Source of the DNA: Nitrosomonadales bacterium | GTDB lineage: Bacteria > Pseudomonadota > Gammaproteobacteria > Burkholderiales > Gallionellaceae | Reading direction: 5' to 3' | NCBI GenBank assembly: GCA_016235045.1 | Contig: JACRME010000008.1 | Span: 186,001-250,000 of the forward strand | DNA: 64,000 bases | Part shown: positions 22,780 through 42,568 of the stretch, in pieces | Position numbering within the stretch: position 1 is the first letter of the stretch | Layout of the letters: each line of letters opens with the position of its first letter | Notes under the pieces: generated by a model | Seen by the model: only the letters and a program-made list of their open reading frames with translations | What the model was told of the DNA's origin: nothing | The model's database searches: none | Made by a program: the position numbers and the translations under genes

Positions 22780-22825
22780 ATGAGTGAGTATCCGGTACTA
22801 CCCCCATCAACCCTCCCCCGGTGGG

Positions 22826-22874
22826 ATAACCAGCGACTTGCCCGCTTGCGGGCTTAGTCGAATGGCTAGTAGTT
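22826..22874 (+). repeat. Structured dispersed repeat, copy A
   Basis: Conserved ends ATAACCAGCGACTTG (22826-22840) and AGTCGAATGGCTAGTAGTT (to 22874) flank a variable internal stem, here CCCGC-TT-GCGGG. CGACT in the left end can pair with AGTCG in the right end. It abuts a CCCTCCCCC/GGTGGG tract on its left. Copies B and C are at 27374 and 42473. Confidence 0.8.
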
Positions 22875-22905
22875 CCACCAGAGCGAGCTGGTTTGGGGGA
22901 TTTTT

Positions 22906-23838
22906 CTAGGGCAGCACTTCTTCGGCTTCGACCTTTTCAGGCTTGATGAAGTCTTCACGCGATACGCCGAACATCAGCAGCAAGGGGCTGGCGACCAGCA
23001 CCGAGGAGTAGATACTGAACAGGATGCCGATGGTCAGCGCCAGCGCGAAGTAATGCAGCGTCTCGCCGCCCAGGAACAGCATGGAGGTCACCATCATCTG
23101 GGTACAAGCATGGGTGATGATGGTGCGCGACATGGTGCGGGTGATGGCGTTGTCGATGATTCCGGCGACTTCGGTCTTGCGCATCTTGCGGAAGTTTTCA
23201 CGTATCCGGTCGAACACCACCACCGACTCGTTCACCGAGTAGCCCAGCACCGCCAGCACCGCCGCCAGCACGGAGAGCGAGAACTCCCACTGGAAAAAGG
23301 CGAAGAAGCCGAGAATGATGACCACGTCGTGCAGGTTGGCGATGATCGCCGCCAGACCGAACTTCCACTCGAAACGCATCCACAGATAACCGACAATGCC
23401 CAAGCTGACCAGCAACAGCGCCATCGCGCCGTTCTCGACCAGGTCCTTGCCGACCTGCGGACCGACGAACTCGACCCGGCGCAACTCCACGCTGGCATCC
23501 TGCTGATGCAGCGAATCCAGCACCAGTTCGGAAAGTTTCGCACCCGCCTTGTTCTGCTTGAGCGGAATCTGGATCAGCACATCCTTGCTGGAACCGAAAT
23601 TCTGCACCAGCGCATCTTTCAGGTCGATGTTGCCTAGCTGCACCCGAACCTTGTCCAGATCGGCCGATTGGGCGTAATGCACTTCCATGACCGTGCCGCC
23701 GGTAAAGTCGACGCCAAAGTTCAGTCCCTTGGTCGCCAGGAAGACCACCGCCAACAGGAAAGTCACCAGTGAAACCGAGGTGGTAAATTTCCCGTAACTC
23801 ATGAACGGGATGTCTTTTTTGATGCGGAAGAATTCCAT
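22906..23838 (-). CDS. secF: Protein translocase subunit SecF
   Basis: The 310-residue inner-membrane protein has six helices: one near the N-terminus (FTTSVSLVTFLLAVVFLATK), a periplasmic domain, and the conserved GYSVNESVVVFDRIRENF in the C-terminal helical bundle. With SecD it uses the proton gradient to help complete protein export after SecYEG. It is 12 bases downstream of secD in the operon yajC-secD-secF. Confidence 0.96.
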   Translation of the reverse strand: MEFFRIKKDIPFMSYGKFTTSVSLVTFLLAVVFLATKGLNFGVDFTGGTVMEVHYAQSADLDKVRVQLGNIDLKDALVQNFGSSKDVLIQIPLKQNKAGAKLSELVLDSLHQQDASVELRRVEFVGPQVGKDLVENGAMALLLVSLGIVGYLWMRFEWKFGLAAIIANLHDVVIILGFFAFFQWEFSLSVLAAVLAVLGYSVNESVVVFDRIRENFRKMRKTEVAGIIDNAITRTMSRTIITHACTQMMVTSMLFLGGETLHYFALALTIGILFSIYSSVLVASPLLLMFGVSREDFIKPEKVEAEEVLP

Positions 23839-23850
23839 TGTCGTATTCCC

Positions 23851-25662
23851 CTAGCCGATGGCGATCTTGTTCAGTCGCGCTTTGCTGCCGTAGATCAGGT
23901 TAACCAGCAGGCGCGAGACCAGCACCGCGCTGAAAATCGAAGTCAGGATGCCGAGGCACAGCACCACGGCGAAACCCTTCACCGGTCCGGAACCGAACAT
24001 GAACAGCGCAATGCCCACGATCAGGGCGGTGATGTTGGAGTCCAGAATCGTGGCGAAAGCGTGCGTATAACCCTCGTGGATCGCCGTTTGCGGCGGCACG
24101 CCGTTGCGCAATTCCTCGCGGATGCGTTCGTTGATCAGCACGTTGGAATCGATCGCCATACCCAGCGTCAGCGCAATACCCGCCATCCCCGGCAGGGTCA
24201 GCGTGGCTTGCAGCATGGACAGCAATGCCACCAGCAACAGCAGGTTGGCGCCCAGCGCCAGCACGGAAACACCGCCGAACATCAGGTAATAAAAGATCAT
24301 GAAGATGGCGATGGCGGCAAATCCGATCCAGGTGGAGTGGAAGCCGCGCGCAATGTTATCCGCGCCCAGACTGGGACCGACGGTGCGTTCTTCGACGATC
24401 TCCATCGGCGCAGCCAGGGCTCCGGCACGCAACAACAGCGCCGTATCGTTGGCTTCTTCCGTGTTCATCTTGCCGCTGATCTGCACGCGCCCGCCGCCGA
24501 TCTCTTCGCGAATCACCGGCGCGGTGACCACCTCGCCCCTGCCCTTCTCGAACAGGATGATGGCCATGCGCTTGCCGACGTTTTCGCGTGTCGCTTCCTT
24601 GAACTTGCGCGCGCCGACCGCGTCCAGGTTGATATGCACGGCCGGTTCGTTGTCGCGGCTGTCGAAGCCGGGTTGCGCGTCGTTGATACGGTCGCCGGTC
24701 AGTATCACGGCTTTCTTCACCAGCAATATCGTGCCGTCGCGATCCTTGAACATTTCGGTACCAAACGGCGCGACCGCCCCCATGCCCAATTGATGCTCGT
24801 CATCCACCATGCGCACTTCCAGCGTCGCAGTGCGCCCCAGGATATCCTTGGCACGCGCCGTATCCTGCACCCCCGGCAACTGCACCACGATGCGATCCGC
24901 GCCCTGCTGCTGGATCACCGGTTCGGCCACGCCCAGTTCGTTCACCCGGTTGCGCAGGGTCACGAGGTTTTGTTGCACGGCCGATTCCTGGATTCGAATT
25001 TGCTCCTGCTGCCTGAGCGTGGCGAGCAGCAAAAATTCGCCTCCCTCATCCTTCGTATTGAATTCCAGGCCGCCGAAGCGCTGTTTGAGTTCCGCCTCGC
25101 CTTTGCTGCGTGCAGCGGCGTCGCGGAATTTGGTGGTAATCACGCTTGCATCGCGGCTCACGCCGGAATAAGGAACGTTTGCCTCGCGCAGGGTGCTGCG
25201 GATGTCGCTGGAAGAAGACTCCAGCGCCTTGTCCATCGCGCCTTTCATGTCGATTTGCAGCAGGAAATGCACCCCGCCGCGCAAATCGAGACCGAGATAC
25301 ATCGGTAATGCGCCCATGCTGCTCAGCCATCGCGGCGAACGCGCCAGCAGGTTTAGCGCCACCATGTAGTCCTCGCCCAGTCGGGCTTGCAGCACGTCTT
25401 TCGCCTTGATCTGGGTATCGGTGTCGTTGAAGCGTGCCTTCACGCTGGTCGCATCCAGCGACATGGCGTCGGGAGCCAATTGCGCCGATTTCAGCGCCTC
25501 TTCCACACGCGCCAGCAAGGCCGCATCCGCTTTCAGGTTGGAACGCAGCGGCAGCACCTGTACCGCCGGCGCCTCGCCGTAAAAATTGGGCAGGGTATAA
25601 ATGAAACCCAGCGCCAGCGCGAACAGCACCAGCAGGTTTTTCCACAGCGGATAGCGGTTCAT
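23851..25662 (-). CDS. secD: Protein translocase subunit SecD
   Basis: The 603-residue partner of SecF has an N-terminal helix (WKNLLVLFALALGFIYTLP), a large periplasmic P1 region, and a C-terminal six-helix part with LGLDLRGGVHFLLQID and TLGMAIDSNVLINERIREEL, which holds the conserved charged residues for proton flow. Length matches proteobacterial SecD (about 615). It lies 26 bases after yajC in the same operon. Confidence 0.97.
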   Translation of the reverse strand: MNRYPLWKNLLVLFALALGFIYTLPNFYGEAPAVQVLPLRSNLKADAALLARVEEALKSAQLAPDAMSLDATSVKARFNDTDTQIKAKDVLQARLGEDYMVALNLLARSPRWLSSMGALPMYLGLDLRGGVHFLLQIDMKGAMDKALESSSSDIRSTLREANVPYSGVSRDASVITTKFRDAAARSKGEAELKQRFGGLEFNTKDEGGEFLLLATLRQQEQIRIQESAVQQNLVTLRNRVNELGVAEPVIQQQGADRIVVQLPGVQDTARAKDILGRTATLEVRMVDDEHQLGMGAVAPFGTEMFKDRDGTILLVKKAVILTGDRINDAQPGFDSRDNEPAVHINLDAVGARKFKEATRENVGKRMAIILFEKGRGEVVTAPVIREEIGGGRVQISGKMNTEEANDTALLLRAGALAAPMEIVEERTVGPSLGADNIARGFHSTWIGFAAIAIFMIFYYLMFGGVSVLALGANLLLLVALLSMLQATLTLPGMAGIALTLGMAIDSNVLINERIREELRNGVPPQTAIHEGYTHAFATILDSNITALIVGIALFMFGSGPVKGFAVVLCLGILTSIFSAVLVSRLLVNLIYGSKARLNKIAIG

Positions 25663-25688
25663 AGCGACACCTGGCTTTGCAAGGATGA

Positions 25689-26030
25689 TTAGATGGACTT
25701 GATCGTGCCTTTGGGCAGCACGTTCTGGATCGCCGGCTTTTGCACCTGGACGACGACGTTATCGGCGATCTCGACGGCCACGTTTTCTTCGCCGACCTTG
25801 GTCACTTTACCCAGTACACCGCCAATGGTGACGACCTCGTCGCCCTTTTGCAGCGCCTCGACCAGGGCTTTATGCTCCTTGGCGCGCTTTTGCTGCGGGC
25901 GCAGGATGAGGAAATAGAACACCGCCAGCAGGGCAACCAACGGCAGGAATTCTATGAAACCGCCACCTTGCGGGGCGGCGGCACCTTCTGCGTAGGCGTT
26001 GCTGATGAACAATTCGCTGATGGAAACCAT
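25689..26030 (-). CDS. yajC: SecDF-associated protein YajC
   Basis: The 113-residue single-span membrane protein has the helix EFLPLVALLAVFYFLIL followed by RPQQKRAKEH, the hallmark of YajC, then a small beta domain with GDEVVTIGGVLGKV. It associates with SecDF. The ATG at 26030 has an AGGAG ribosome-binding site. It heads the secD-secF operon; a -10 box with a GC discriminator is 40 bases upstream, so transcription can start here independently of tgt. Confidence 0.95.
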   Translation of the reverse strand: MVSISELFISNAYAEGAAAPQGGGFIEFLPLVALLAVFYFLILRPQQKRAKEHKALVEALQKGDEVVTIGGVLGKVTKVGEENVAVEIADNVVVQVQKPAIQNVLPKGTIKSI

Positions 26031-26069
26031 AACTACTCCTCCTTGGGAAATCGGGTTGTTAAAATCAAA

Positions 26070-26082
26070 GGCGCGCATTCTA
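26070..26082 (-). promoter_or_regulatory. Probable yajC-secDF promoter -10 with discriminator
   Basis: Minus strand reads TAGAATGCGCGCC, one mismatch from the TATAATGCGCGCC seen at fmdB and panD. The -35 is unclear. Confidence 0.5.
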
Positions 26083-26177
26083 ACATGGATGGCATGACTG
26101 TTTTACTACGCGCCCGTCCGCCATCCGAATGCCGTTCAAGGTGTCCACCTGATGCCGAAAGCGCTCAATCCTGGTTT

Positions 26178-27428
<1,251 letters not shown>

Positions 27429-27434
27429 ACATCA

Positions 27435-27508
27435 GAGAACACAGAGGTCACAGAGAAATACAAACCCACGGAGACTTCTCTGTGATCTCTGTGTGCTCTG
27501 TGGCTAAT
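27435..27508. repeat. CACAGAG-type inverted repeat between queA and tgt
   Basis: The left arm AGAGAACACAGAGGTCACAG and right arm ending CTCTGTGGCTAA are near-complements with a short spacer. Each arm is itself made of degenerate ACAGAG units. A second copy is at 43233-43325. Confidence 0.75.
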
Positions 27509-28534
27509 TTATTTTGCCTCTCTCTCGATCAGCATCGCATCTCCGTAACTGAAGAAGCGATATTCCTGTTCCACCGCATGCCGATAAGCGGCCAGCATCC
27601 TGTCCATTCCGCCGAAGGCGCACACCAGCATCAGCAGCGTCGAGCGCGGCAGGTGGAAATTGGTCAGCAGCACATCCACCACCCTGAAGCGGTAGCCGGG
27701 GGTGATGAAGATGCGCGTCTCGCCCGATCCGGCCTTCAACTCGCCGGCTGCCGCTGCGCTTTCCAGCGCGCGCAGGCTGGTCGTGCCGACAGCGATGATG
27801 CGCCCGCCCTTGGCCCTGGCTTGGGCGATGGCGTCCAGCGTGGCCTGCGGGATGGTATAGCGCTCGCTGTGCATGACGTGTTCTTCGATATTTTCGGCGC
27901 GCACCGGTTTGAACGTGCCCGCGCCGACATGCAAGGTCACGTAGGCGATGTTCACGTTCTTGTCGCGCAACGCCTGCAGCATGGTCTCGGCAAAATGCAG
28001 CCCGGCCGTGGGCGCCGCCACCGCACCCGGCTCGCGCGCGAACACGGTCTGGTAGCGCGTCTCGTCCTCGGCACCGGCGGCATGGGTGATATAGGGAGGC
28101 AAGGGCAGATGCCCGTGCCGCTCCAGCAGAGTCGTCACCGCTTCCGCATCTTCGAAGCGCAAATGGAAGAATTCCCCCTCGCGCCCCAGTACCTGCACGC
28201 GCAGTTTCCCTGCCAATATCAGGCGGCTGCCCGGCCTGGGCGTCTTGCTCACGCGCACCTGCGCCAGAACATCATGCTCGTCCAGCACCCGCTCGACCAG
28301 CACTTCGACCTTGCCGCCACTCTCCTTTTCCCCGAACAGGCGCGCCTTCAGCACGCGCGTATCGTTCAGGACCAGCAGGTCATGCTCGCGCACCAGCCCG
28401 TGCAGGTCGGCGAATTGGCTGTCTTTCAACCCCGCCCTGCCCACCTGCAACAAGCGGCTTGCCCCCCGCTGTGCGGGCGGATGTTGCGCGATCAGGCGCT
28501 CGGGCAGAATGAAGTCGAAATCGTCGGTACGCAT
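27509..28534 (-). CDS. queA: S-adenosylmethionine:tRNA ribosyltransferase-isomerase
   Basis: The 341-residue enzyme converts preQ1 in tRNA to epoxyqueuosine. It begins [19 protein letters not shown] and carries [20 protein letters not shown] and [19 protein letters not shown], both diagnostic for QueA. An open frame extends upstream through the tRNA-Leu gene, but this extension is the antisense of the tRNA and is rejected; the ATG at 28534 is the family start. It lies upstream of tgt in the usual order. Confidence 0.96.
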
Positions 28535-28561
28535 GGAAACCGGGGAAATGCGGGAAGAAAA

Positions 28562-28573
28562 GCGCGCATTGTA
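28562..28573 (-). promoter_or_regulatory. Possible queA promoter -10
   Basis: Minus strand reads TACAATGCGCGC, a -10-like hexamer followed by the same GC discriminator seen elsewhere, 28 bases before the queA ATG. Confidence 0.4.
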
Positions 28574-28659
28574 GTTGATGGGGGCTGGCGTTTCATGGAT
28601 AATTCGCGCCCTCCCGAGTCGACACGCCTCAAACCGTCGATGCCGGGAAATACATCCTT

Positions 28660-28746
28660 GCCGGGGTGATGGAACTGGTAGACGTGCCGGACTCAAAATC
28701 CGGTGCCTGAAAGGGCGTGGGGGTTCGATTCCCCCCCCCGGCACCA
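28660..28746 (+). tRNA. tRNA-Leu, anticodon CAA
   Basis: The 87-base class II tRNA has acceptor arms GCCGGGG and CCCCGGC, anticodon stem CCGGA/TCCGG with loop CTCAAAA (anticodon CAA, reads UUG), a short variable arm (TGCCTGAAAGGGCG region) and T-loop TTCGATT. The discriminator base is A and the 3' CCA is encoded. It stands alone, divergent from queA. Confidence 0.95.
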
Positions 28747-28822
28747 AAATTCATTTTTTCCTAGATTCAATCTGCCAATATCAGTAGCTGCACTGCGCAC
28801 GCTGCCGATGTCCGACCAAAGC

Positions 28823-30076
28823 TTATCGGTACGCGTAACCAACCATGGCGCAGAAACCGGTATCGCTGAATGCCGGCCCGATCCCGGCAGAATAGTTTCC
28901 GCGTCTGGCACTCAATTGGGCATTCCACTCCCGGCTAAATTTGTAATACATCGCGGCCGTGATTCGGGTGTAGGTGGCGGTGGCTGCATATTGATACGAG
29001 GTAAAGCTCAAGGTAACGCCCGGATTAGCCACGTAGTTGCCGGAGCTGGTTTGTTTATCCCGCCCATATCTCCCGTCAACGCGAAAACCGATTTTCTCGT
29101 TTACCGGAATGATTGCGCCTGCTCCCACCATCAGCATGCTGTCTTTCTGCGAATAGTTATCCAGGAAATCTATTTCATTCCCCGTGCCATTGGTTGAGTT
29201 CAGTGCATAACCAAATAGAACATACGGCGAAAAATAGCCGGACGACAACGACCGAATTAGCCACCGGACATCGATTTCGGCTTCATTTGTACGAAATGAT
29301 TTGCTGACTGAACCGACACCCGGAATGCTGGAAGACAGATTTCCGCTTCTTCTTCCATACGACGCCATTACGGTGATGTCGCCGTTGCCAACCCAGGCGC
29401 CTACGTCCGGCTGGGAAGCACTGTAACTTTGAGTCACGTAATTCAAAACTCCACCAACCGGGTAATAAAGGGGTTCGGTAGCCTTGTAACTGGAAAGCTC
29501 CGCAGAAATACCGGACACCCATTTGCCCGGTGCGGCGACTGTCGGGTCGGAATAGACCCACTTGCCTCCGGCGGCTTTTTTATCGACTCGCGCTTGAACC
29601 TGCGGTTTTTCCTGGGGCTTCTCTACAGGCATTTCCTTGGGTTTCTCCAGCGGCTTTTCCGGTGCTGTTTCCTGCGGTTGTATCGGCGCCTTTGCGGGCT
29701 CTGTCTGCCCGCGCAATTTTTTCAATTCGTTTACTGCATACACATTCCCCTTGGCCGCGGCATTTTCAATTACCTGCAACGCCCTTGGGTTTCCTTGTGC
29801 TGCCGATTTTCGAAACCACTCGAAAGCCCGCATGTCGTCTTTCGGCACGCCCTGCCCATTCAGATAGAACGCTCCCATGTTAAATTGGGCTGCCGTTTTC
29901 CCCTGTTCCGCCAGGATGGAGAATTTGGAAAATGCAGTTTTGTAATCCTTTTGTGCCAGTGCGGCATTGGCGTCGTGAACAAGCGCTTTATCTTCTGTGC
30001 TCGCCAAGTCGTCTGCATGTGCAATACCCACCAGAAGCGCATAAGACAAGATAAGGGTCGTAAGCAGTGTTTTCAT
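28823..30076 (-). CDS. Sel1-repeat protein with C-terminal beta-barrel-like domain
   Basis: The 417-residue exported protein starts with a signal peptide (MKTLLTTLILSYALLVGIAHA). Residues about 30-125 carry Sel1/TPR-like repeats (AAQFNMGAFYLNGQGVPKDD, EWFRKSAAQGNPRALQVI). A Pro/Glu/Lys-rich linker (EKPLEKPKEMPVEKPQEKPQ) leads to a C-terminal region rich in alternating aromatic strands (residues about 175-417), ending GYAYR, that reads like an outer-membrane barrel. No specific family is recognised. The linker could span the periplasm. The start at 30076 has a GAGGAA ribosome-binding site. Codon use is less GC-rich than neighbours, which may point to acquisition. Confidence 0.7.
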   Translation of the reverse strand: MKTLLTTLILSYALLVGIAHADDLASTEDKALVHDANAALAQKDYKTAFSKFSILAEQGKTAAQFNMGAFYLNGQGVPKDDMRAFEWFRKSAAQGNPRALQVIENAAAKGNVYAVNELKKLRGQTEPAKAPIQPQETAPEKPLEKPKEMPVEKPQEKPQVQARVDKKAAGGKWVYSDPTVAAPGKWVSGISAELSSYKATEPLYYPVGGVLNYVTQSYSASQPDVGAWVGNGDITVMASYGRRSGNLSSSIPGVGSVSKSFRTNEAEIDVRWLIRSLSSGYFSPYVLFGYALNSTNGTGNEIDFLDNYSQKDSMLMVGAGAIIPVNEKIGFRVDGRYGRDKQTSSGNYVANPGVTLSFTSYQYAATATYTRITAAMYYKFSREWNAQLSARRGNYSAGIGPAFSDTGFCAMVGYAYR

Positions 30077-30201
30077 TTGTTCCTCAAAGTTAATTCGTTC
30101 GGCCAACCCATCTTGCCTGGTTGGCTCTTCTTATCGATCCCTCCCCGTGGGTGATTCGTACGTCGCAGTCCCAAACCGTGATGCGTTGTCACTTTAATTA
30201 G

Positions 30202-30229
30202 ATAGTATCCTGAAATATTGGATATGCAA
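30202..30229 (-). promoter_or_regulatory. Probable promoter of the Sel1/barrel gene, in a 377-base intergenic region
   Basis: Minus-strand -35 TTGCAT (30224-30229) and -10 TACTAT (30202-30207) are spaced by 16 bases, giving a leader of about 120 nt. The rest of 30077-30453 is AT-richer than its surroundings. It holds a short dyad GACAC/GTGTC near 30404-30419 upstream of the small Ala/Lys-rich gene, but no gene that I can see. Confidence 0.5.
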
Positions 30230-30453
30230 GTAGGGATTTTGGCCCGAGTTGGCAAATTCCACAACAAAAACGACTTCATGTGCTTCCAGAATTGAGACAT
30301 TCCCCACTTTCGGCCTATCGCGTTCTTGCAGCTTCAATCCCTCACTCCCACCAAACAATCGTTCCCACTGTCAACGCAATACAAAGCTGCGGCGTTACTG
30401 GCTCTGACACAAGTCAGTGTCGTGCTAATTTCAACTACTGAATGGAGCCACAA

Positions 30454-30657
30454 ATGAAACTGCTGTCTACCCTGATCGCTGCTGTATTCGCTATTGTTTC
30501 CTTCTCCGCAGTTGCCGCAGAAGCTGCTGCTCCCGCTGCAGCCCCGGCGGCTTCTGCCGCTCCGGCTGCCGCCGCCCCGGCCAAAATGGCAAAAAAAGCC
30601 AAGAAAGCCAAAAAGGCCAAGAAAGCCAAGGCCGCTGACGCAGCACCTGCAAAGTAA
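30454..30657 (+). CDS. Small secreted alanine/lysine-rich protein
   Basis: The 67-residue protein has a signal peptide (MKLLSTLIAAVFAIVSFSAVA-A). The mature part is an Ala/Pro segment followed by tandem KKAKKAKKAKKAK repeats, giving a strongly basic tail. A GGAG ribosome-binding site precedes the ATG and a strong terminator follows. Similar low-complexity exported proteins are common in Betaproteobacteria, but I know no function. The basic repeats could bind polyanions at the cell surface (inference). Confidence 0.65.
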   Translation: MKLLSTLIAAVFAIVSFSAVAAEAAAPAAAPAASAAPAAAAPAKMAKKAKKAKKAKKAKAADAAPAK

Positions 30658-30676
30658 TAATCCGGCAATAAATTAA

Positions 30677-30701
30677 GGCAGGGGTAACCCTGCCTTTTTT
30701 T
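30677..30701 (+). terminator. Rho-independent terminator
   Basis: GGCAGGG (30677-30683) / GTAA / CCCTGCC (30688-30694) followed by seven T residues; it ends the small Ala/Lys-rich gene. Confidence 0.93.
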
Positions 30702-30704
30702 CAT

Positions 30705-30769
30705 CGGCAACCCAAAAATCCAAATCCTGTCGCAACACTGCAATGGCGCCTTGAATTTTTGGGTTGCCG
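30705..30769. repeat. 15-bp perfect inverted repeat upstream of nudJ
   Basis: CGGCAACCCAAAAAT (30705-30719) is the exact complement of ATTTTTGGGTTGCCG (30755-30769), with a 35-base loop. It lies between the terminator and the nudJ -10 box and could be an operator, an attenuator or a mobile-element relic. Confidence 0.7.
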
Positions 30770-30779
30770 GTATTTCGTT

Positions 30780-30785
30780 TAAAAT
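30780..30785 (+). promoter_or_regulatory. Probable nudJ -10 box, seven bases before the start codon
   Basis: TAAAAT is followed by CCCACC and then the nudJ ATG. If used, the transcript would begin at or next to the A of ATG, giving a leaderless mRNA; no ribosome-binding site is present. The -35 is poor. Confidence 0.45.
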
Positions 30786-30791
30786 CCCACC

Positions 30792-31238
30792 ATGATCTGG
30801 AAACCTCACGCCACCGTCGCCGCCGTCCTCGAACAGGATGGCAAGTTCTTGCTGGTGGAAGAACATACCCCGCAAGGCCTGCTGTTCAACCAGCCCGCCG
30901 GTCACTGGGAACCCAATGAGACCCTGCCCGCAGGGGCGATCCGCGAAGTGCTGGAAGAATCGGCCTACGAGTTCGAGCCGGAGTTCCTGCTCGGCGTCTA
31001 TCGCTGGCACTCGACTGCCTCCGATACCACTTATCTGCGTTTCGCCTTCGGCGGACGCATCCTCGCCCATCATCCCGAACGTGCGCTGGACAAGGGCATC
31101 GTGCGCGCCGTGTGGATGACGCCGGAGGAGATCCGCGCCACCCAGGCACGCCATCGCAGCCCGCTGATCCTGCGTTGCGTGGAAGATTATCTTGCGGGCA
31201 AACGCTTCCCGCTCGACCTCATCACGCATTATGAGTAA
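30792..31238 (+). CDS. nudJ: Phosphatase NudJ-type Nudix hydrolase
   Basis: This 148-residue Nudix protein resembles E. coli NudJ (YmfB), which hydrolyses thiamine and nucleoside di- and triphosphates. The Nudix box is GHWEPNETLPAGAIREVLEES followed by AY, so the usual glycine after EE-x is replaced by alanine; the metal-binding glutamates are all present. N-terminal WKPHATVAAVLE and the later YRWHSTASDTTYLRFAFGG fit NudJ. As in E. coli it lies directly upstream of mnmA. Confidence 0.88.
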   Translation: MIWKPHATVAAVLEQDGKFLLVEEHTPQGLLFNQPAGHWEPNETLPAGAIREVLEESAYEFEPEFLLGVYRWHSTASDTTYLRFAFGGRILAHHPERALDKGIVRAVWMTPEEIRATQARHRSPLILRCVEDYLAGKRFPLDLITHYE

Positions 31239-31290
31239 CGAGCTTGCTCGTTCCCTCTCCCCAACCCTCTCCCGCAAGCGGGAGAGGGAG
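31237..31290 (+). repeat. Palindromic repeat forming the mnmA leader
   Basis: A perfect palindrome AACGAGCTTGCTCGTT (31237-31252) overlaps the nudJ stop. It is followed by CCCTCTCCCC-AA and then an 11-bp hairpin CCCTCTCCCGC (31265-31275)/GCGGGAGAGGG (31278-31288). The right arm ends in GGGAG, which is correctly spaced to serve as the mnmA ribosome-binding site. Confidence 0.75.
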
Positions 31291-31295
31291 CAATC

Positions 31296-32390
31296 GTGGA
31301 CAGCAATATGAAATCTCGCGGCTGCGTCGTCGTCGGCATGTCCGGCGGCGTGGACTCTTCCGTCACGGCACTCCTGTTGAAACAACAAGGCTACGAAGTC
31401 ATCGGCCTGTTCATGAAGAACTGGGAGGACGATGACGACAGCGAATATTGTTCCTCGCGCCAGGACCTGATCGACGCTGTGGCCGTCGCCGACACCATCG
31501 GCATCCCCATCGAGGCGGTGAACTTCGCCAAGGAATACAAGGACCGCGTGTTCAGCTATTTCCTGCGCGAGTACGAAGCTGGGCGCACGCCGAACCCGGA
31601 CATCCTGTGCAATTCCGAAATCAAGTTCAAGGCCTTCCTCGACCACGCCATCCGCCTGGGTGCAACGAAGATCGCCACCGGTCATTACGCCAAGGTGCGC
31701 GAACAGGACGGCCTGTTCCAGTTGCTCAAGGCGGACGACGACAGCAAGGACCAGAGCTATTTCCTGCATCGCCTGAATCAACACCAGTTGTCGAAATCCA
31801 TGTTCCCGCTGGGCGACATTCCAAAATCGAAAGTGCGCGAGATCGCGCGCCAGCACAACCTGTCCAACCACGCGAAAAAGGACAGTACTGGCATCTGCTT
31901 CATCGGCGAGCGCCCGTTCCGCGAGTTCCTCAACCGCTATCTGCCGACCAAACCGGGCGACATGGTCACACCGGATGGCAAGGTGATGGGGCAGCACATG
32001 GGGTTGTCGTTCTACACCTACGGCCAGCGCCAGGGACTGGGAATCGGCGGCGGCAAGGAAGGCAGCGGCGAACCGTGGTTCGTCGCGGGCAAGGACATGG
32101 CAAGCAACCGCCTGATCGTGGTGCAGGGACACGACCATCCCGCACTGCTCAAGCCGGAACTGGAGGCGCTGGAAATGCACTGGATCAGCGGCGCCGCGCC
32201 CGACACCGCGCGCGCCTATGCCGCCAAGACGCGCTACCGCCAGCAGGATGCGGGTTGCCGCATCGCCCTGACCGGCGCGGATTCGGCCCGCTTCAGCTTC
32301 GACGAGGCACAGTGGGCGGTAACGCCGGGACAATCAGTCGTCGCCTACGACGGGGCGGTCTGTCTCGGCGGCGGCATCATCGAGAAATGA
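31296..32390 (+). CDS. mnmA: tRNA-specific 2-thiouridylase
   Basis: The 364-residue enzyme puts sulfur on U34 of tRNA-Lys, -Glu and -Gln. It shows the PP-loop [10 protein letters not shown], the first catalytic cysteine in [12 protein letters not shown], and the second in [14 protein letters not shown]-like [14 protein letters not shown] is also typical. I prefer the GTG at 31296 because GGGAG is five bases upstream; an ATG four codons later (31308) lacks a ribosome-binding site. It is downstream of nudJ and 13 bases before the mscS-like gene. Confidence 0.94.
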
Positions 32391-32403
32391 GCAAGGAGAG
32401 AAC

Positions 32404-33456
32404 ATGACCATCAACCTGAGTCCCGAAAACCTCCGTCTGCTGGCTGTGCTCGCCGCCGCCATCGCGGCGCACTATCTGGCGCGCCGCGCCTTGCAGCAGG
32501 CAGCGAAAGTCGCCGCGCACACCGACAACATCTGGGACGATTCGCTGATCGAAGCGGCACGCAAGCCCTTGCCGGTGCTGATCTGGCTGACGGGCATCTC
32601 TTTCGCCCTGCACCTGCTGCATCGCCAGACCGGTGAAGAACTGCTCGAATACGTCGCCCCGCTACGCAGCATCGGTATCGTGCTTTGCGTCTCCTGGTTC
32701 CTGCTCAAACTCATCCGCGAAGTCGGCAAGAACGTGACCGCATCGCACGCCCAAGCCGGACAGGAGATCGACCGCACCATGGTCGACAGTCTGGGCAAGG
32801 TGTCGCGCATCGCGGTGGTGGTGATCGCCGCCCTGGCCGTGATGCAGACACTGGGATTCAGCCTCTCCGGTTTGCTGGCGTTCGGCGGCATGGGCGGCAT
32901 CGCGGTCGGTTTCGCCGCAAAGGACTTGCTGTCCAACCTGTTCGGCGGATTGATGATCCAACTGGACCGTCCTTTCGCCATCAACGACTTCATCCGCGTA
33001 TCAGAACAGCAACTGGGCGGAACGGTGGAATACATCGGCTGGCGCCACACGCGCCTGCGCTCGATCGACAAGACCGCCCTGTATATCCCGAATTCGATCT
33101 TCACCACCGTTGTGGTCGAAAACGTCACGCGCATGTCGCACCGCCGTTTCGACCTCACCATCAGCCTGCGCTACCAGGACATGGACAAGGTGGAAGCGGT
33201 CAGCGCCGCTATCCGCAAGTTGCTGGAGAACCATCCCGGTATCGACCACGATCTGATCGTCGCGGTCGGACTTGAGGAATTTGCCGCCTCATCGCTCGAC
33301 CTGAAAGTGATGGCGTTCACCCAGGTCACCGACTTCCAGCAATTTCGCCAGCTCAAACAGGATCTGTTGCTGCAAATCAGCGCCATATTGGGCAATAACG
33401 GCGCCGACATCCCGTTCCAGACCCAGACATTGCATATCGTCCGCGAAGACGCTTGA
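32404..33456 (+). CDS. MscS-family mechanosensitive channel
   Basis: The 350-residue protein has three to four N-terminal helices and then the pore-lining TM3 with glycine/alanine packing (LLAFGGMGGIAVGFAAKDLL), the beta domain starting with PFAINDFIRVSE, and a cytoplasmic alpha-beta domain. This order is that of small MscS-like channels (E. coli MscS 286 residues; this one has extra N-terminal helices, as YnaI-type proteins do). It releases solutes on osmotic downshift. It is probably co-transcribed with mnmA. Confidence 0.9.
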   Translation: MTINLSPENLRLLAVLAAAIAAHYLARRALQQAAKVAAHTDNIWDDSLIEAARKPLPVLIWLTGISFALHLLHRQTGEELLEYVAPLRSIGIVLCVSWFLLKLIREVGKNVTASHAQAGQEIDRTMVDSLGKVSRIAVVVIAALAVMQTLGFSLSGLLAFGGMGGIAVGFAAKDLLSNLFGGLMIQLDRPFAINDFIRVSEQQLGGTVEYIGWRHTRLRSIDKTALYIPNSIFTTVVVENVTRMSHRRFDLTISLRYQDMDKVEAVSAAIRKLLENHPGIDHDLIVAVGLEEFAASSLDLKVMAFTQVTDFQQFRQLKQDLLLQISAILGNNGADIPFQTQTLHIVREDA

Positions 33457-33478
33457 AGCAGGGAATTGCGCTTTCACG

Positions 33479-33491
33479 TAAAATGCACGCC
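33479..33491 (+). promoter_or_regulatory. Probable purB promoter -10 with GC discriminator
   Basis: TAAAATGCACGCC lies 25 bases before the purB start and matches the recurrent -10/discriminator pattern of this window. The -35 is weak. Confidence 0.5.
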
Positions 33492-33494
33492 TGA

Positions 33495-34886
<1,392 letters not shown>

Positions 34887-34916
34887 ATACCACCCACCGG
34901 CCTTTCAGTGGCAGGC

Positions 34917-34940
34917 AGGGGCAAATAATCATTTGCCCCT
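34917..34940. terminator. Hairpin between purB and the response-regulator gene
   Basis: AGGGGCAAAT (34917-34926) and ATTTGCCCCT (34931-34940) form a perfect 10-bp stem with a 4-base loop between two convergent genes. There is no long T-run, so it may be a repeat element that also works as a weak terminator. Confidence 0.55.
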
Positions 34941-34950
34941 ACGGGGTTCC

Positions 34951-35870
34951 TCACAGTTCGATGATGTGTGTCGTGTTGCGCCCCGACTCCTTGGACTGAT
35001 AGAGCATCCTGTCGGCCGCTTCCGTCAGTTGCTGGCTCGTCACTTCGCCGGTCCGATCGGTGCTGGCGACGCCCACACTGATGGTGACCTGAGACGACAC
35101 CAGCGAGTGCTCGTGCGGAATCGCCAGTTCGCTCACGGCTTCATGCAGACGTTCGGCCAACTGCAAAGCGCCTTCCTTGTGGGTGCCGGGCAGGATGGCG
35201 CTGAACTCTTCCCCGCCATAACGCGCCAGGATGTCGCCGGGACGATGGATGCAGCCCTGCAGCGCCTTGGCGATGCGCGACAGGCATTCGTCGCCCGCGC
35301 CGTGGCCATAGTTGTCGTTGTATTGCTTGAACTGGTCGATGTCCAGCATGATGAGCGAGATGGGCATGCCCTCCCGCTGGCAGCGGCGCCATTCCTCGAT
35401 ACGGGCCTGGTCGAAGGCGCGCCGGTTGGGCACCCCGGTCAGCGCATCCACGGAAGCCAGGTTCTCGAGCAAGTCGTTCTGGCGTTTGAGCCGCAGATGG
35501 ACGCCGACGCGCGCCTTGACCACGGCGTTGTTGAAGGGCTTGGAAATGTAATCCACCGCGCCCAGCGCAAACCCCATGGTCTCGTTCTCGGCATCGCCCA
35601 TGGCGGTGATGAAGATGATGGGGATGTTGTGCGTGATGGGGTCGGACCTGAGCTTGCGGCATACCTGATGTCCGTCCATGCCCGGCATCAGGATGTCGAG
35701 CAGGATCAGGTCGGGCTGTCCGGTGTGCGCGGCCTTGAGCGCCTGTTCGCCGCTGGTTGCCACCATCAGCCGGTAATCGTTCTTGAGCAGCGCGTTGAGG
35801 ATGGTGATGTTGATGCGCTCGTCATCCACGATCAGGATGCACGGGCGTTCGTCGTTCTGGGCGTTTGTAG

Positions 35871-35874
<4 letters not shown>
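34951..35874 (-). CDS. Response regulator with GGDEF (diguanylate cyclase) output
   Basis: The 307-residue protein has a receiver domain (1-130; phospho-acceptor aspartate in LILLDILMPGMDG, switch residues ITA and K in YISKPFNN) followed by a diguanylate cyclase domain with YGGEEF. An upstream RPGD inhibitory site five residues before GGEEF indicates product feedback. It resembles PleD/WspR-like enzymes with a single receiver. Its ATG overlaps the stop of the hybrid kinase gene (ATGA), so the kinase is the likely phosphate donor. Confidence 0.92.
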
Positions 35875-38735
<2,861 letters not shown>

Positions 38736-38770
38736 AGTGGTTGAAGTAGCGATGGCCGTGCTCCCTGCGT

Positions 38771-40135
38771 TCAGTTGAAATCGAATCCCGAATTGCGGTT
38801 CGGGCTGGCGGGTGTGTCGCCGCCGAGGTGGAACCAGCGGCGCACGTCCGCCAGCGCCTCCTCGCCGACGAAGTAGGCCGCTTCCTCCAGCAATAGGCCG
38901 GACTCCGACAGCGGCAGGAAGCTGAGCAATTCCTTGAGCGTGAATGCCTTGAGCACCGCCCCCAGCATGATGTGCACTTCTTCCGTGGTGATGTCCAGCG
39001 TGAACACCTTTTCGCAATACAGCGGGTCGATATGGTTGGGACTGGCCGGATTGAACAGGCCGATGAAGCGATCCAGCAACGGCGCCGCCGCGTCGGACAG
39101 GAAATGCGTGATCAGCGTATTGAGCACGATCTCGGAACGTTCGCGGAAGCGGAAGTGCGGGATCGCCGCCAGCTCGGTGCGCCCCAGCCTGTCCGCGCGC
39201 AGCGCCGCATCGAGCTTGCCGGAAAAATCGCGGTAGTTGTTGAGGATGAACGACATGCCCCAGCCGCACGGCGTGGTCCAGCACGCCGCATCCCCGGCGA
39301 AGATCACGCGCTCGCGCGCCAGTTCCTGCGAGACGCTGCCGGACGGATACCAGCCGTATTTGATCTCCTTGATCGTCATGTCGTGGAACGCCGCCGTGCC
39401 GGCCTCTTCGCGGATGATGCGTTGATAGACCGGCTCCATCGCCTCGCGCGTGATGATCTCCTTGCGCAGATACAGGATCAGCGAGAATGAAGTACGGGGA
39501 TCGAGAATCTCGTATTCGAACACCGGACGGCCCTGTTGCAGCGAGGCGTCGGCATTCCTGTTGGTGTCGGCGAAGGTCTGCCACAGCATGTAGTCGCCCA
39601 CCTCCATGCCGCCCAGGCCGTTGGGATGATCGCCGATCGCGCCGAACACCGACCACCAGTAGTAGCCGGCGCGGCTGATGCCGTATTGCTTCGCGATGGG
39701 GGAGTTGTAGCCGGTGCAGTCGATCAGCAGCCGCGCCTGGAACTTGCCGCGCGCGGTGGCTATGCTGACCCCGCTGCCGCTCACCTCGTGCGAGCGGTAC
39801 TCGCACTGGTCCAGCACCTCCGAACCGTTGGCGCGCACCGTCTCGACCCAGTGCGGCAGCAAAGTCTTTTCATTGACGTAGGGATAACGCTCGAACTGGC
39901 GCGCCTGCCATTGCGCCGTGGCGCCGGTACAGGTATTGGCCAGGAACCGCGTCACGCCGCCAAAAGTAAAGGGGCGGACCAGGTCGTCGACGACGTTGTA
40001 CGGCACGAACCAGCTGCGGTTGGTGGTGCCCGCCACGCCCTTTTCCACCACCAGTACGCGCCAGTTGCGCGACAACTCGGATGCGATGGCCAGCCCCGCC
40101 GGGCCGCCCCCGATGATGACAGCATCGTATTGCAT
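38771..40135 (-). CDS. FAD-dependent oxidoreductase, lycopene-cyclase/halogenase-like
   Basis: The 454-residue flavoprotein begins MQYDAVIIGGGPAGLAIASE, a classical dinucleotide-binding fold, and has the second flavin motif VIFAGDAACWTTPCGWGMSF around residue 290. These features occur in lycopene cyclases, geranylgeranyl reductases and flavin-dependent halogenases. The substrate is unknown, and no carotenoid genes are nearby. It is the first gene of an operon with a hybrid kinase and a GGDEF regulator, so it might make or sense a redox or lipid signal for them (speculative). A good promoter precedes it. Confidence 0.75.
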   Translation of the reverse strand: MQYDAVIIGGGPAGLAIASELSRNWRVLVVEKGVAGTTNRSWFVPYNVVDDLVRPFTFGGVTRFLANTCTGATAQWQARQFERYPYVNEKTLLPHWVETVRANGSEVLDQCEYRSHEVSGSGVSIATARGKFQARLLIDCTGYNSPIAKQYGISRAGYYWWSVFGAIGDHPNGLGGMEVGDYMLWQTFADTNRNADASLQQGRPVFEYEILDPRTSFSLILYLRKEIITREAMEPVYQRIIREEAGTAAFHDMTIKEIKYGWYPSGSVSQELARERVIFAGDAACWTTPCGWGMSFILNNYRDFSGKLDAALRADRLGRTELAAIPHFRFRERSEIVLNTLITHFLSDAAAPLLDRFIGLFNPASPNHIDPLYCEKVFTLDITTEEVHIMLGAVLKAFTLKELLSFLPLSESGLLLEEAAYFVGEEALADVRRWFHLGGDTPASPNRNSGFDFN

Positions 40136-40188
40136 GGAAACTCCCCTTTGAGCGAAAGATGGAAACTCAGACCCGCTTGTTTTTATGG

Positions 40189-40217
40189 AGTATCCCGTGC
40201 ATTCCCGCCGCAGTCAA
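40189..40217 (-). promoter_or_regulatory. Promoter of the oxidoreductase-kinase-GGDEF operon
   Basis: Minus-strand -35 TTGACT (40212-40217) and -10 GATACT (40189-40194) are separated by exactly 17 bases, about 55 bases before the start codon. This is the best full sigma-70-type promoter I see in the window. Confidence 0.7.
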
Positions 40218-40240
40218 TTGCAGGGCATCAGAAGCAGAGC

Positions 40241-40284
40241 GACAAAAGCAAAACGCCCCGTTTCCGGGGCGTTTTGCTTTTGTC
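40241..40284. terminator. Strong bidirectional terminator downstream of panD
   Basis: A perfect 20-bp stem with a TTTC loop: the left arm (40241-40260) ends AAAACGCCCCG and the right arm (40265-40284) begins CGGGGCGTTTT. It lies two bases after the panD stop and isolates the pan cluster from the signalling operon. Confidence 0.95.
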
Positions 40285-40285
40285 A

Positions 40286-40669
40286 TTATGCTGCGGCCTG
40301 GACGGGAATGTTGTCGCGCTTGTCGATGATGCGGTTGTATTCGTCCACGTAGACGAGCGTGGGATGGTACTTCTGCAACTCCATCTCCGAATAGATGGAG
40401 AAGGCGGCGATGATGAGAATGTCGCCCGGACCGGCCTTGTGCGCTGCCGCGCCGTTGACCGAGATGGTGCGCGAACCGCGCTCGGCGCGGATGGCATAGG
40501 TGCTGAAGCGTTCGCCGTTGGTGACGTTGTAGATATCGATGGCCTGATATTCCCTGATGCCGGACGCATCCAGCAGGTCGTCGTCGATGGCGCACGAACC
40601 CTCGTAATGCAGTTCGGACTGCGTCACGCGCACGCGGTGCAATTTGGCCTGTAGCATGGTTCGTTGCAT
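40286..40669 (-). CDS. panD: Aspartate 1-decarboxylase (pyruvoyl enzyme precursor)
   Basis: The 127-residue proenzyme makes beta-alanine for pantothenate. The self-cleavage site GS is present in [10 protein letters not shown] (between G24 and S25), which creates the pyruvoyl group. [19 protein letters not shown] and [18 protein letters not shown] are family signatures. It has an AGGAG ribosome-binding site and its own TATAAT promoter box, but also follows panC within about 105 bases. It ends at a strong terminator. Confidence 0.97.
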
Positions 40670-40749
40670 ATTCCACTCCTGCCCTCTCGCAGTCCCCCGG
40701 CAAACGGAGGCCGACGAAAGGCAATCTATCATTTCTACCCTCTTTCGGG

Positions 40750-40762
40750 GGCGCGCATTATA
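40750..40762 (-). promoter_or_regulatory. panD promoter -10 and GC discriminator
   Basis: Minus strand reads TATAATGCGCGCC, identical over 13 bases to the fmdB promoter. It lies between panC and panD, so panD can be transcribed alone. Confidence 0.6.
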
Positions 40763-40774
40763 AACGTCTGGCGG

Positions 40775-41653
40775 CTAAAGACAAACCTCAATGTTGTCGA
40801 TCAAACGGGTCTTGCCCAGCCGCGCCGCCGCCACAATCACCAGTTTGCGTTCGCCCTGGGGCGGAACGCCAAGATCGGACTGCCTGCGCACGGAGATATA
40901 TTCCACCTGCCAGCCGCGCTTGGCAAGGGCCGCGCCCGCTCCGCGCTCCAGCGCCAGGATGTCGGCACCGCCTCGTTTCAGCGCATCCCCCATCCCACAC
41001 AACGTTCGACTGAGAAAAGCCGCTTCGGTTCGCTCTTCCGGGGACAGGTACTGGTTGCGCGAGGACAAGGCCAGCCCGTCCGCCGCGCGCGAAGTCTCTG
41101 CCCCTACTATTGCAATGGGTAAATTGAACTGGGTGACCATCTGCCGGATGATGGCCAGTTGCTGGTAATCCTTCTTGCCGAAAATGGCGACCTGCGGCTG
41201 CACCAGGTTGAACAGCTTCAGCACCACCGTCGCCATGCCGCGGAAGTGGCCGGGGCGGAACTCGCCGCACAGTTCGTTGGCGATGGGCGGCGGCTCGACA
41301 TAGATGGTTTGCTGTTCGGGGTACATATCGGCCACGGAAGGGGCGAACACCACGTCGGCCAGTCCCTGCAACTTGTCGCAGTCCGCTTCCAGCGTGCGCG
41401 GATATTTGTCGAAATCCTCGTTGGGGCCGAATTGCAGCGGATTGACGAAGATGCTCACCACCACGCAGACATCTCCGCCACCGGTTTGCTGGTTAGCGGA
41501 TTGCGTACCTTTGGTGCAGGTACCTTGTTCGCGCGCGATGCGCACCAGTTCGATGTGACCTTCGTGCAGGTTGCCCATGGTGGGCACGAAGGCGACGGCC
41601 TTTTCGTTGGCCAAGCGCGCGCGGAGTTCGGAAACGGAATGGATCAGTTGCAT
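40775..41653 (-). CDS. panC: Pantothenate synthetase with a short extra loop
   Basis: The 292-residue enzyme joins pantoate and beta-alanine using ATP. It has the [10 protein letters not shown] signature (HIGH-like), [34 protein letters not shown] and FGKKDYQQL. Between residues 44 and 60 it contains about 15 extra residues ([15 protein letters not shown]) that E. coli PanC lacks; they would fall in a surface loop just before the strand leading to SIFVNP. Its ATG overlaps the panB stop (TGATG). Confidence 0.94.
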
Positions 41654-42450
41654 CAGAAGGAATGTTCGGTTGCGGGGAAACTGCCGGATTTTACTTCGGC
41701 GACATAGCGCGCCACCGCGTCGCCGACAGACGACGCACCCTGCATGAAGTCCTTGACGAAGCGCGCTTTTTTGCCGGGATAGATGCCAAGCATGTCGTAC
41801 ACCACCAGCACCTGGCCGGAACAGGCCGCACCTGCGCCGATGCCGATGGTGGGAATGGAAAGTTGCGCGGTCGCTTCCGCCCCCAGAGCAGCAGGAATGG
41901 CCTCGAACACGATCATGCCTGCACCTGCTTTTTGCAGCGCCTGCGCATCGCGCAAGAATTTCTGTGCCGCGGCATCGCCCTTGCCCTGCACCTTGTAGCC
42001 ACCAAGCTGGTGCACCGACTGCGGCGTCAGGCCGATGTGCCCGCATACCGGAATGCCGCGCGAAGTAAGGAAAGCGACGGTCTCCGCCATCTCGGCGCCG
42101 CCTTCGAGCTTGACCATGTGCGCGCCTGCCGCCATCAGTTGCACCGCATAGCCGAAGGTCTCGCGCGCGCTGAATTGCGAAGTGCCGAACGGCATGTCGG
42201 CGACGATGAAGGCCTGTTGCGAGCCGCTCACCACGCAGGAGGTGTGATAGGCCATCTGCTCGATGGTGACGGGCAGGGTTGTCTCGCGCCCCTGGATCAC
42301 CATGCCCAGCGAGTCGCCGACCAGCAGCACGTCCACGCCGTTGTTCTCCATCAGTGTGGCAAAGCTGGCGTCGTAACAGGTCAGCACGGCGATCTTCTCG
42401 CCCTTGTCGCGCATGGATTGGAGTTTGCTCAGCGTCGTTCTCATCATCAT
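41653..42450 (-). CDS. panB: 3-methyl-2-oxobutanoate hydroxymethyltransferase
   Basis: The 265-residue enzyme makes ketopantoate from alpha-ketoisovalerate and methylene-tetrahydrofolate. It shows [32 protein letters not shown] and [12 protein letters not shown], with the catalytic glutamate in FEAIPAALG. Three consecutive ATG codons open the frame. The GAGAGGG ribosome-binding sequence is best spaced for the second or third (42447, 42444), and that sequence belongs to a palindromic repeat arm. It is coupled to panC downstream. Confidence 0.95.
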
Positions 42451-42472
42451 TCCCTCTCTCCAACTCTGAAAT

Positions 42473-42527
42473 AACTACTAGCCATTCGACTAAGCTGGCA
42501 AACAACGCCAGCCAAGTCGCTGGTTAT
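42473..42527 (-). repeat. Structured dispersed repeat, copy C, inside another palindrome
   Basis: On the minus strand it has the same conserved ends as copies A and B and an internal stem GCTGGC...GCCAGC. It is flanked by the two halves of a CCCTCTC/GGGAGAG palindromic repeat (about 42450-42470 and 42528-42550), as if inserted into it between dNK and panB. Confidence 0.8.
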
Positions 42528-42568
42528 CTCCCACCCGCGGGAGAGAGAGCAAACGTGAAGGGCGATTT

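Follow-up and report, generated by a model that had tools for sequence, protein, structure and literature searches.

A short hairpin repeat of Gallionellaceae that interrupts other palindromic repeats before AG and is very probably mobile

Small dispersed repeats (SDR) of Nostoc are very small and mobile, and their enzyme is not known. The element described here is likewise a very small mobile repeat, set apart from SDRs by its host and probably by sequence and size. It also resembles GTAG-type REPs and REPINs, associated with RAYT/TnpA-REP, in being a short extragenic hairpin with a tag by its foot, many copies and compensated stem changes; TnpA-REP recognizes single-stranded GTAG REPs and cleaves at CT or CA (accessible parts of PMC8266576, PMC3116915 and PMC3733652). 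Cleavage at CT is described for three TnpA-REP enzymes, one of which accepts CA as well, and that of E. coli depends on a bulged stem (PMC8266576). With CGTC-type REPs (dRS3, RPE) the element shares palindromicity and the lack of a known transposase; PMC3733652 counts S. lithotrophicus among CGTC-positive species and records a few cases of REP families lying within other palindromes, which gives nesting in itself a precedent. Palindromic repeats are also the targets of certain insertion sequences (PMC1525189, in part), which, unlike our element, are full IS with a transposase gene. By analogy, the closest parallel in behaviour is the yeast mitochondrial GC cluster GC42, a mobile palindrome of about 40 bp with AG target nucleotides and an unsettled mechanism. 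That cluster resides in an organelle, and AG may occur twice at its sites (PMC4478555, in part), whereas no AG duplication is seen at the element.

We examined a 64-kb window of a genome from the family Gallionellaceae, in which a preliminary description had noted three copies of a dispersed repeat with variable internal stems. The copies lie where they had been placed, and their stated ends and stems are correct; of the proposed 49-55-bp unit, the left ends hold and the right edge falls 5 nt short of the true end (...GTAGTTNNNYC, then A). A covariance model built on 48 copies, picked for diversity, gave exactly three matches over the window (E-values 3.6e-28, 1.2e-26 and 3.5e-19). These are copy A (22826..22879, plus strand, 62.2 bits), a 54-bp form with stem CCCGC/GCGGG, and two 60-bp forms, copy B (27374..27433, plus strand, 86.9 bits) and copy C (42468..42527, minus strand, 82.7 bits). 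Genome-wide alignment of the host's own copies establishes the unit as ATAACC ... GTAGTTNNNYC, followed by A, with a length of 54-60 bp and no gene inside. Among 254 copies taken with 40-nt flanks and required to be followed by A, 162 are 60 nt and 60 are 54 nt long. The 3' tail is GTNGTTNNAYC, with YYAY after GTT as a rule (TCATC in 77 and CCATC in 70 of the same 254). Integron attC boxes have the consensus RYYYAAC / GTTRRRY; the element, with GTT followed by YYAY, departs from it, and no cassette array was seen. Nor does it have the unpaired GTAG that GTAG REPs carry 5' of the hairpin: a single base stands there, and GTNG lies on the 3' side.

The element is dispersed in the genome and widespread among iron-oxidising bacteria and related lineages. 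The genome search suggested by the preliminary description returned 14 copies with both exact ends (reversed control pattern, 0), 19 with a looser left core and 32 right ends at up to three mismatches against one reversed-control match, which puts the genome at about 32 copies. In Gallionellaceae, 1,728 exact-pattern copies occur in 127 of 158 genomes and 14 of 15 genera, with a maximum of 108 per genome and none for the reversed control. Right ends were found in 73 of 149 relatives, namely in 73 of the 90 from the same family and in none of the 59 from other families. Confinement to one family is nevertheless rejected, for the covariance model finds diverged copies in eight further families: 31 of 399 genomes across the order were positive, 20 of them outside Gallionellaceae (E from 2e-27 to 2e-4). 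Sampling across the phylum yielded 3 positives in 398, of which two belong to the window's own genus and one is marginal. Since both scans scored only 13 candidates per genome, their copy counts are lower bounds. Hosts among the matches listed are mostly Gallionella, Sideroxydans (the genus of S. lithotrophicus), Ferrigenium, Gallionellaceae or Nitrosomonadales, with a few others, e.g. a Gammaproteobacteria bin (L238) and a Thiobacillus bin (L287). BLAST against plasmids and phages gave no match to the element, and two stretches of viral contigs contain it. Curated Rfam models did not match the element in the window (gathering threshold) or in five loci (E up to 1). No description of it was recognised in the openly accessible literature.

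The 60-nt class folds as one hairpin with an interrupted stem, and hairpin strength reaches z-scores of -3.3 to -6.7 for three copies. In the 48 diverse copies, 94.7% of stem cells are paired, and changes on both sides affect 116 cells, where shuffling predicts 38. The covariation score of 0.438 compares with 0.169 in shuffled alignments, was reached by none of 500 shuffles and drops to 0.119 or less once the partner is slid by 1-3 columns. APC-corrected mutual information over 155 distinct copies places stem pairs in the top four ranks and in nine of the top 25. Both results bear out the earlier suggestion of selection for structure, and the statistical test of base-pair covariation recommended there is positive. 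The fifth-ranked pair, 8/42, is a purine mismatch (G·A in 124, A·G in 26, other in five of the 155). The outer stem CGACT/AGTCG initially proposed does pair and is too short: CCA/TGG closes nearly all copies, and relatives have a further stem at positions 2-6/45-49. In relatives of family f43 this basal TAACC/GGCTA is replaced by TAAGC/GCTTA or CAGCC/GGCTG, as judged from 12 sequences chosen out of 32 rows, two of them from other families.

Wobble pairs point to the strand that folds. GT/TG outnumbers AC/CA by 81 to 22 in the 60-nt class (leaving out pair 22/28, which is nearly always GT) and by 15 to 0 in the 54-nt class, so that the strand as written appears to be the folding one. Pair 15/35 supplies 41 of the GT cells, without which the count is 40 to 20, and the cells are not independent, related copies being counted.

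The insertion junction is precise. Among 263 copies with 60-nt flanks (256 canonical), and with no requirement on the next base, the first base after the element is A in 258; AG follows in 227 and AA in 29. We found no target duplication beyond this single A, which cannot be assigned to one side, and ATAACC and NNAYC at the two ends form no inverted repeat; both features separate the element from MITEs of DDE transposons. On the 5' flank, where an IS200/IS605 derivative would have conserved nucleotides, apart from the unassignable A, only positions -1 (0.44 bits) and -3 (0.58 bits) stand out in the set of 254. Of these junctions 243 were tested, and for 110 of them the DNA analysed contained dispersed, non-syntenic uninterrupted insertion sites, compared with 19 of 906 displaced control windows, which include coding DNA, so the contrast with intergenic DNA may be overstated. 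Several of 40 misses inspected by eye are of the same repeat types as the empty sites found. Joined targets include TTCCGGC..GCCGG^AATGACG in one orientation and GGCGC^AGGCC in the other, as well as CCCTCCCCCTTGCAGGGGG^AGGGCTAGGG, GCCAC^AGAGAACACAGAG and CGCCCTG^AGC.TGTCGAAGGGC; by reading, the first of these is a CGTC-type REP, a class that is thus among the targets and is not the element itself. Joined targets fold slightly better than control windows (mean -8.7 vs -8.0 kcal/mol, p 0.016), and the place of the junction inside the host hairpin varies between repeat families; targets thus share the junction sequence and not a fixed place in a hairpin.

In the host's own genome, copies interrupt at least four unrelated repeat families. 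At least 10 of the 256 canonical copies lie inside another copy of the element, nine at GGCY^AG, and this number is too low because the search pattern swallows tight nests such as L132. Two loci (L032, L069) display the converse arrangement, a second hairpin repeat (GTGGTTGTAAAGCC..GGCAACAACCAC) inside the element's loop, in opposite orientations in the two copies.

By reading of the sequence, each of the three window copies appears to interrupt another repeat. Copy A would split a repeat of the CCCTCCCCCGGTGGG^AGAGCGAGCTGG..GGGG type (22811..22899), a class also met at other copies, between ORFs that we take to be secF and a DedA-like gene. Copy C lies in CTCTCTCTCCCGCGGGTGGGAG^AGAGTTGGAGAGAGGGA (42451..42549), upstream of an ORF which is presumably panB. 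Copy B sits in a palindrome, GCCAC^AGAG..CACAGAG ... CTCTGTG..CTCTGTGGC (27369..27504), in the spacer between genes assigned by us to tgt and queA. This spacer was compared with loci from 29 of 33 other genomes of the genus; it was readable between both anchors in 27, two giving the tgt side alone. The element is absent from all 27. Twenty have merely 2-3 bp there, four an unrelated stretch of 553-668 bp, G016 a 153-bp insert with a palindrome of another kind and G011 a 62-bp CTCTGTG remnant. G020 has a CACAGAG palindrome of the same design as at copy B, without the element. In the simplest order of events the palindrome would have come first and the element second.

The preliminary description had considered a non-autonomous mobile element. 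Insertion into other repeats, nesting, the empty orthologous target and family-wide copy numbers support this, and the element is very probably mobile. For the whole mechanism, we favour a non-autonomous, structure-recognised mini-transposon, moved on one strand by an enzyme that acts in trans, most likely a TnpA-REP-like HUH/Y1 enzyme or one related to it (probability about 0.5). The mobile unit would be a single strand that forms one hairpin (positions 2-49), followed by the 3' tail GTNGTTNNAYC. Together with CCA/TGG at its foot and the conserved purine-purine mismatch, this hairpin would provide the recognition signal, leaving the loop arms free to vary while pairing is kept. The enzyme would join the unit precisely at B^AG (5'-CT on the opposite strand), less often at B^AA, and produce no target duplication. 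Frequent targets are other palindromic repeats, including copies of the element, so that copies could also be carried along when a host repeat spreads. The data themselves show mobility, boundaries, target, structure and distribution, from which we infer a role of the fold in transposition and an enzyme working on a single strand.

The RAYT model NF047646, run on all 158 family genomes, matches in 128. The REP-associated transposase anticipated by the preliminary description is abundant in the window's genome, with eight matches, but copies occur in only 3 of 50 RAYT loci, some of which overlap, at distances of about 0.2, 1.1 and 1.3 kb. Unlike GTAG REPs in REPtrons, the element was not found directly flanking a RAYT gene; it is inserted in other repeats, ahead of AG. 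Flanks were read at 13 RAYT loci, all bordered by GTAG-type repeats unlike the element in sequence; in the window's genome, several RAYT genes (L371-L375 and other loci) are bordered by the types GTAGGGTGGGCAC.., GTAGGTCGGGTTAGC.. and GTAGGGCGTCAATAAGC... RAYT presence does not predict copy number either: G175 (42 copies, 83% complete), G158 (34, 83%) and G004 (5, single contig) have copies without any NF047646 match, whereas G067, G081 and G085 lack exact-pattern copies despite 14-19 matches.

Profiles PF01797 and PF04480 were run on 92 relatives. Copy number does not follow PF01797: copies occur in G004 and G036, which it does not match (NF047646 does match in G036), and G039, G040 and G048 match without copies. 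None of 30 Y1 loci holds a copy, four own-genome regions lack a full one, and 18 further Y1/RAYT regions contain no full main-type copy. An autonomous long form is rejected: a left end lies no more than 140 nt from 273 of the 276 distinct right ends, and one of the three exceptions lies at the extreme end of its locus. The orphan right end in the window's own genome (C20:23796) lies near what we take to be a TIR-domain-like ORF, not a transposase. No specific gene family recurs among the ORFs within 350 bp of 266 copies, called crudely in DNA inside the analysed loci; the biggest group, with five sites, reads as ABC ATPases.

DUF559, which we regard as a Vsr-like nuclease, is rejected as a partner, a copy being present in 1 of 30 DUF559 loci, although one more lies 49 bp from a DUF559 match (G050:C33). 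These loci (L293-L322) have CCCTC(T/C)CCC / GGG(A/G)GAGGG repeats within 200 bp on both sides in 21 of 30 and on one side in six; for RAYT loci the figures are 0 and 2 of 24. DUF559 may be the partner gene of this repeat, which is very common and a main target of the element. In L126 (about 4400-5200), a 96-aa GIY-YIG-like ORF lies between two copies in CATTGCGA..GGCAATCC-type repeats, perhaps another nuclease-repeat pairing.

A strand-bound mover of the IS200/IS605 kind should betray itself by replication-strand bias. In three single-contig genomes, 37 of 63 copies are on the C-rich strand (11/15, 10/20 and 16/28; p 0.21; ori and ter of G023 being uncertain), and local GC skew around 154 copies is balanced (78 vs 76), unlike in an IS200/IS605 derivative of the PATE-like sort. 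In G004 (single contig), nine of 10 right ends are on the minus strand, unlike in other genomes. The complement of the AG junction is CT in 227 of 263 copies, and the fold favours the opposite strand. A Y1-like enzyme is still the likeliest single mover, and we do not call the element a REP, because CT opposite the junction fits while the wobble-indicated fold strand and the strand-bias prediction do not.

The strongest competitor, though a rather unlikely one, is copy-and-paste through RNA, in which the element would be transcribed, fold as RNA, and be reverse transcribed and inserted in trans. Over both size classes, G-U-type pairs exceed A-C on the element's strand by 96 to 22. The CTTG and TTCG tips found in the 54-nt class resemble stable RNA tetraloops. 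An RNA route has also been suspected for the GC42 cluster with its AG target nucleotides (PMC4478555, in part). Copies truncated at the 5' side are rare (3 of 276 right ends without a left end), which speaks against reverse transcription, and a single pair supplies 41 of the 96 wobble cells, in copies that are related and not independent. Less probable again is another site-specific enzyme sharing one core base with the target, e.g. an RNA-guided IS110-type or a serine/tyrosine recombinase in trans. The strict one-position junction would suit it, as would the preference for repeat palindromes, which some IS also hit (PMC1525189, in part); on the other hand, the many unrelated targets do not, and 54-60 bp would hardly accommodate a bridge RNA or a shared core of at least two bases.

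It is very improbable that the element is only a passenger, spreading solely with host palindromic repeats and never alone. Identical copies with the same recurring flanks in G283 and G243 agree with such transport, as do the two copies with near-identical flanks on either side of a DUF559-like ORF in L238. In G283 (L510-L519), the element lies beside a CCCCTCGCCC palindrome in a larger repeat whose recurring copies have nearly identical flanks, which suggests joint spread of host repeat and element there. As a complete account, passenger spread is already contradicted, by the variety of unrelated host repeats in one genome and by copies interrupting other copies at one exact position. An equally small chance is left to an element that is no transposon but is selected for a role in mRNA or transcription, as a REP-like stabiliser or a terminator: the strong hairpin at gene junctions would fit such a role, also proposed in the preliminary description as mRNA processing or stability, but copies insert into other repeats and into the element itself, and the absence of orientation bias between co-directional genes (40 sense, 49 antisense, p 0.40; by a crude ORF rule, 89 of 266 copies were used after setting aside 95 in stop-to-stop ORFs, 30 at edges, 30 convergent and 22 divergent) opposes it.

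Variants with another tail bear on how the mini-transposon would select its site. In twelve right halves the terminal sequence is GGCTATGCAAAGC or similar, in place of GGCTAGTNGTTNNAYC. In those with an adjacent left end, TAACC is preceded by what reads as T in nine of 10. Variants with tail TGCAAAGC and a different junction were observed in L133, L179, L199, L200, L202, L229, L252, L258, L326 and L502. Some of them are inside main-element loops or GTAG-type repeats, and the one in L326 is within 0.1 kb of a RAYT match. This small sample suggests that the tail may help to choose the target.

We read the element as a variant of the REP/SDR kind, a non-autonomous mini-transposon. More speculatively, and with the odds clearly against it, it could represent a separate class of mobile DNA, made up of gene-less hairpins in which the 3' tail sets the target (GTNGTTNNAYC before AG; the minor TGCAAAGC after GT), preying on mobile palindromes and on themselves, with a mover that is neither RAYT nor a known transposase and possibly works via folded RNA.

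The movement of gene-less hairpins, among them REPs, SDRs and GC clusters, has long lacked an explanation. The identical copies in G243 and G283 are probably recent. Exact ends and junction, an empty sister target, compensated variants and lineages with identical copies make both the recognition code and the enzyme testable in this family. Repeat families that nest in one another, as these do, can mislead repeat annotation.
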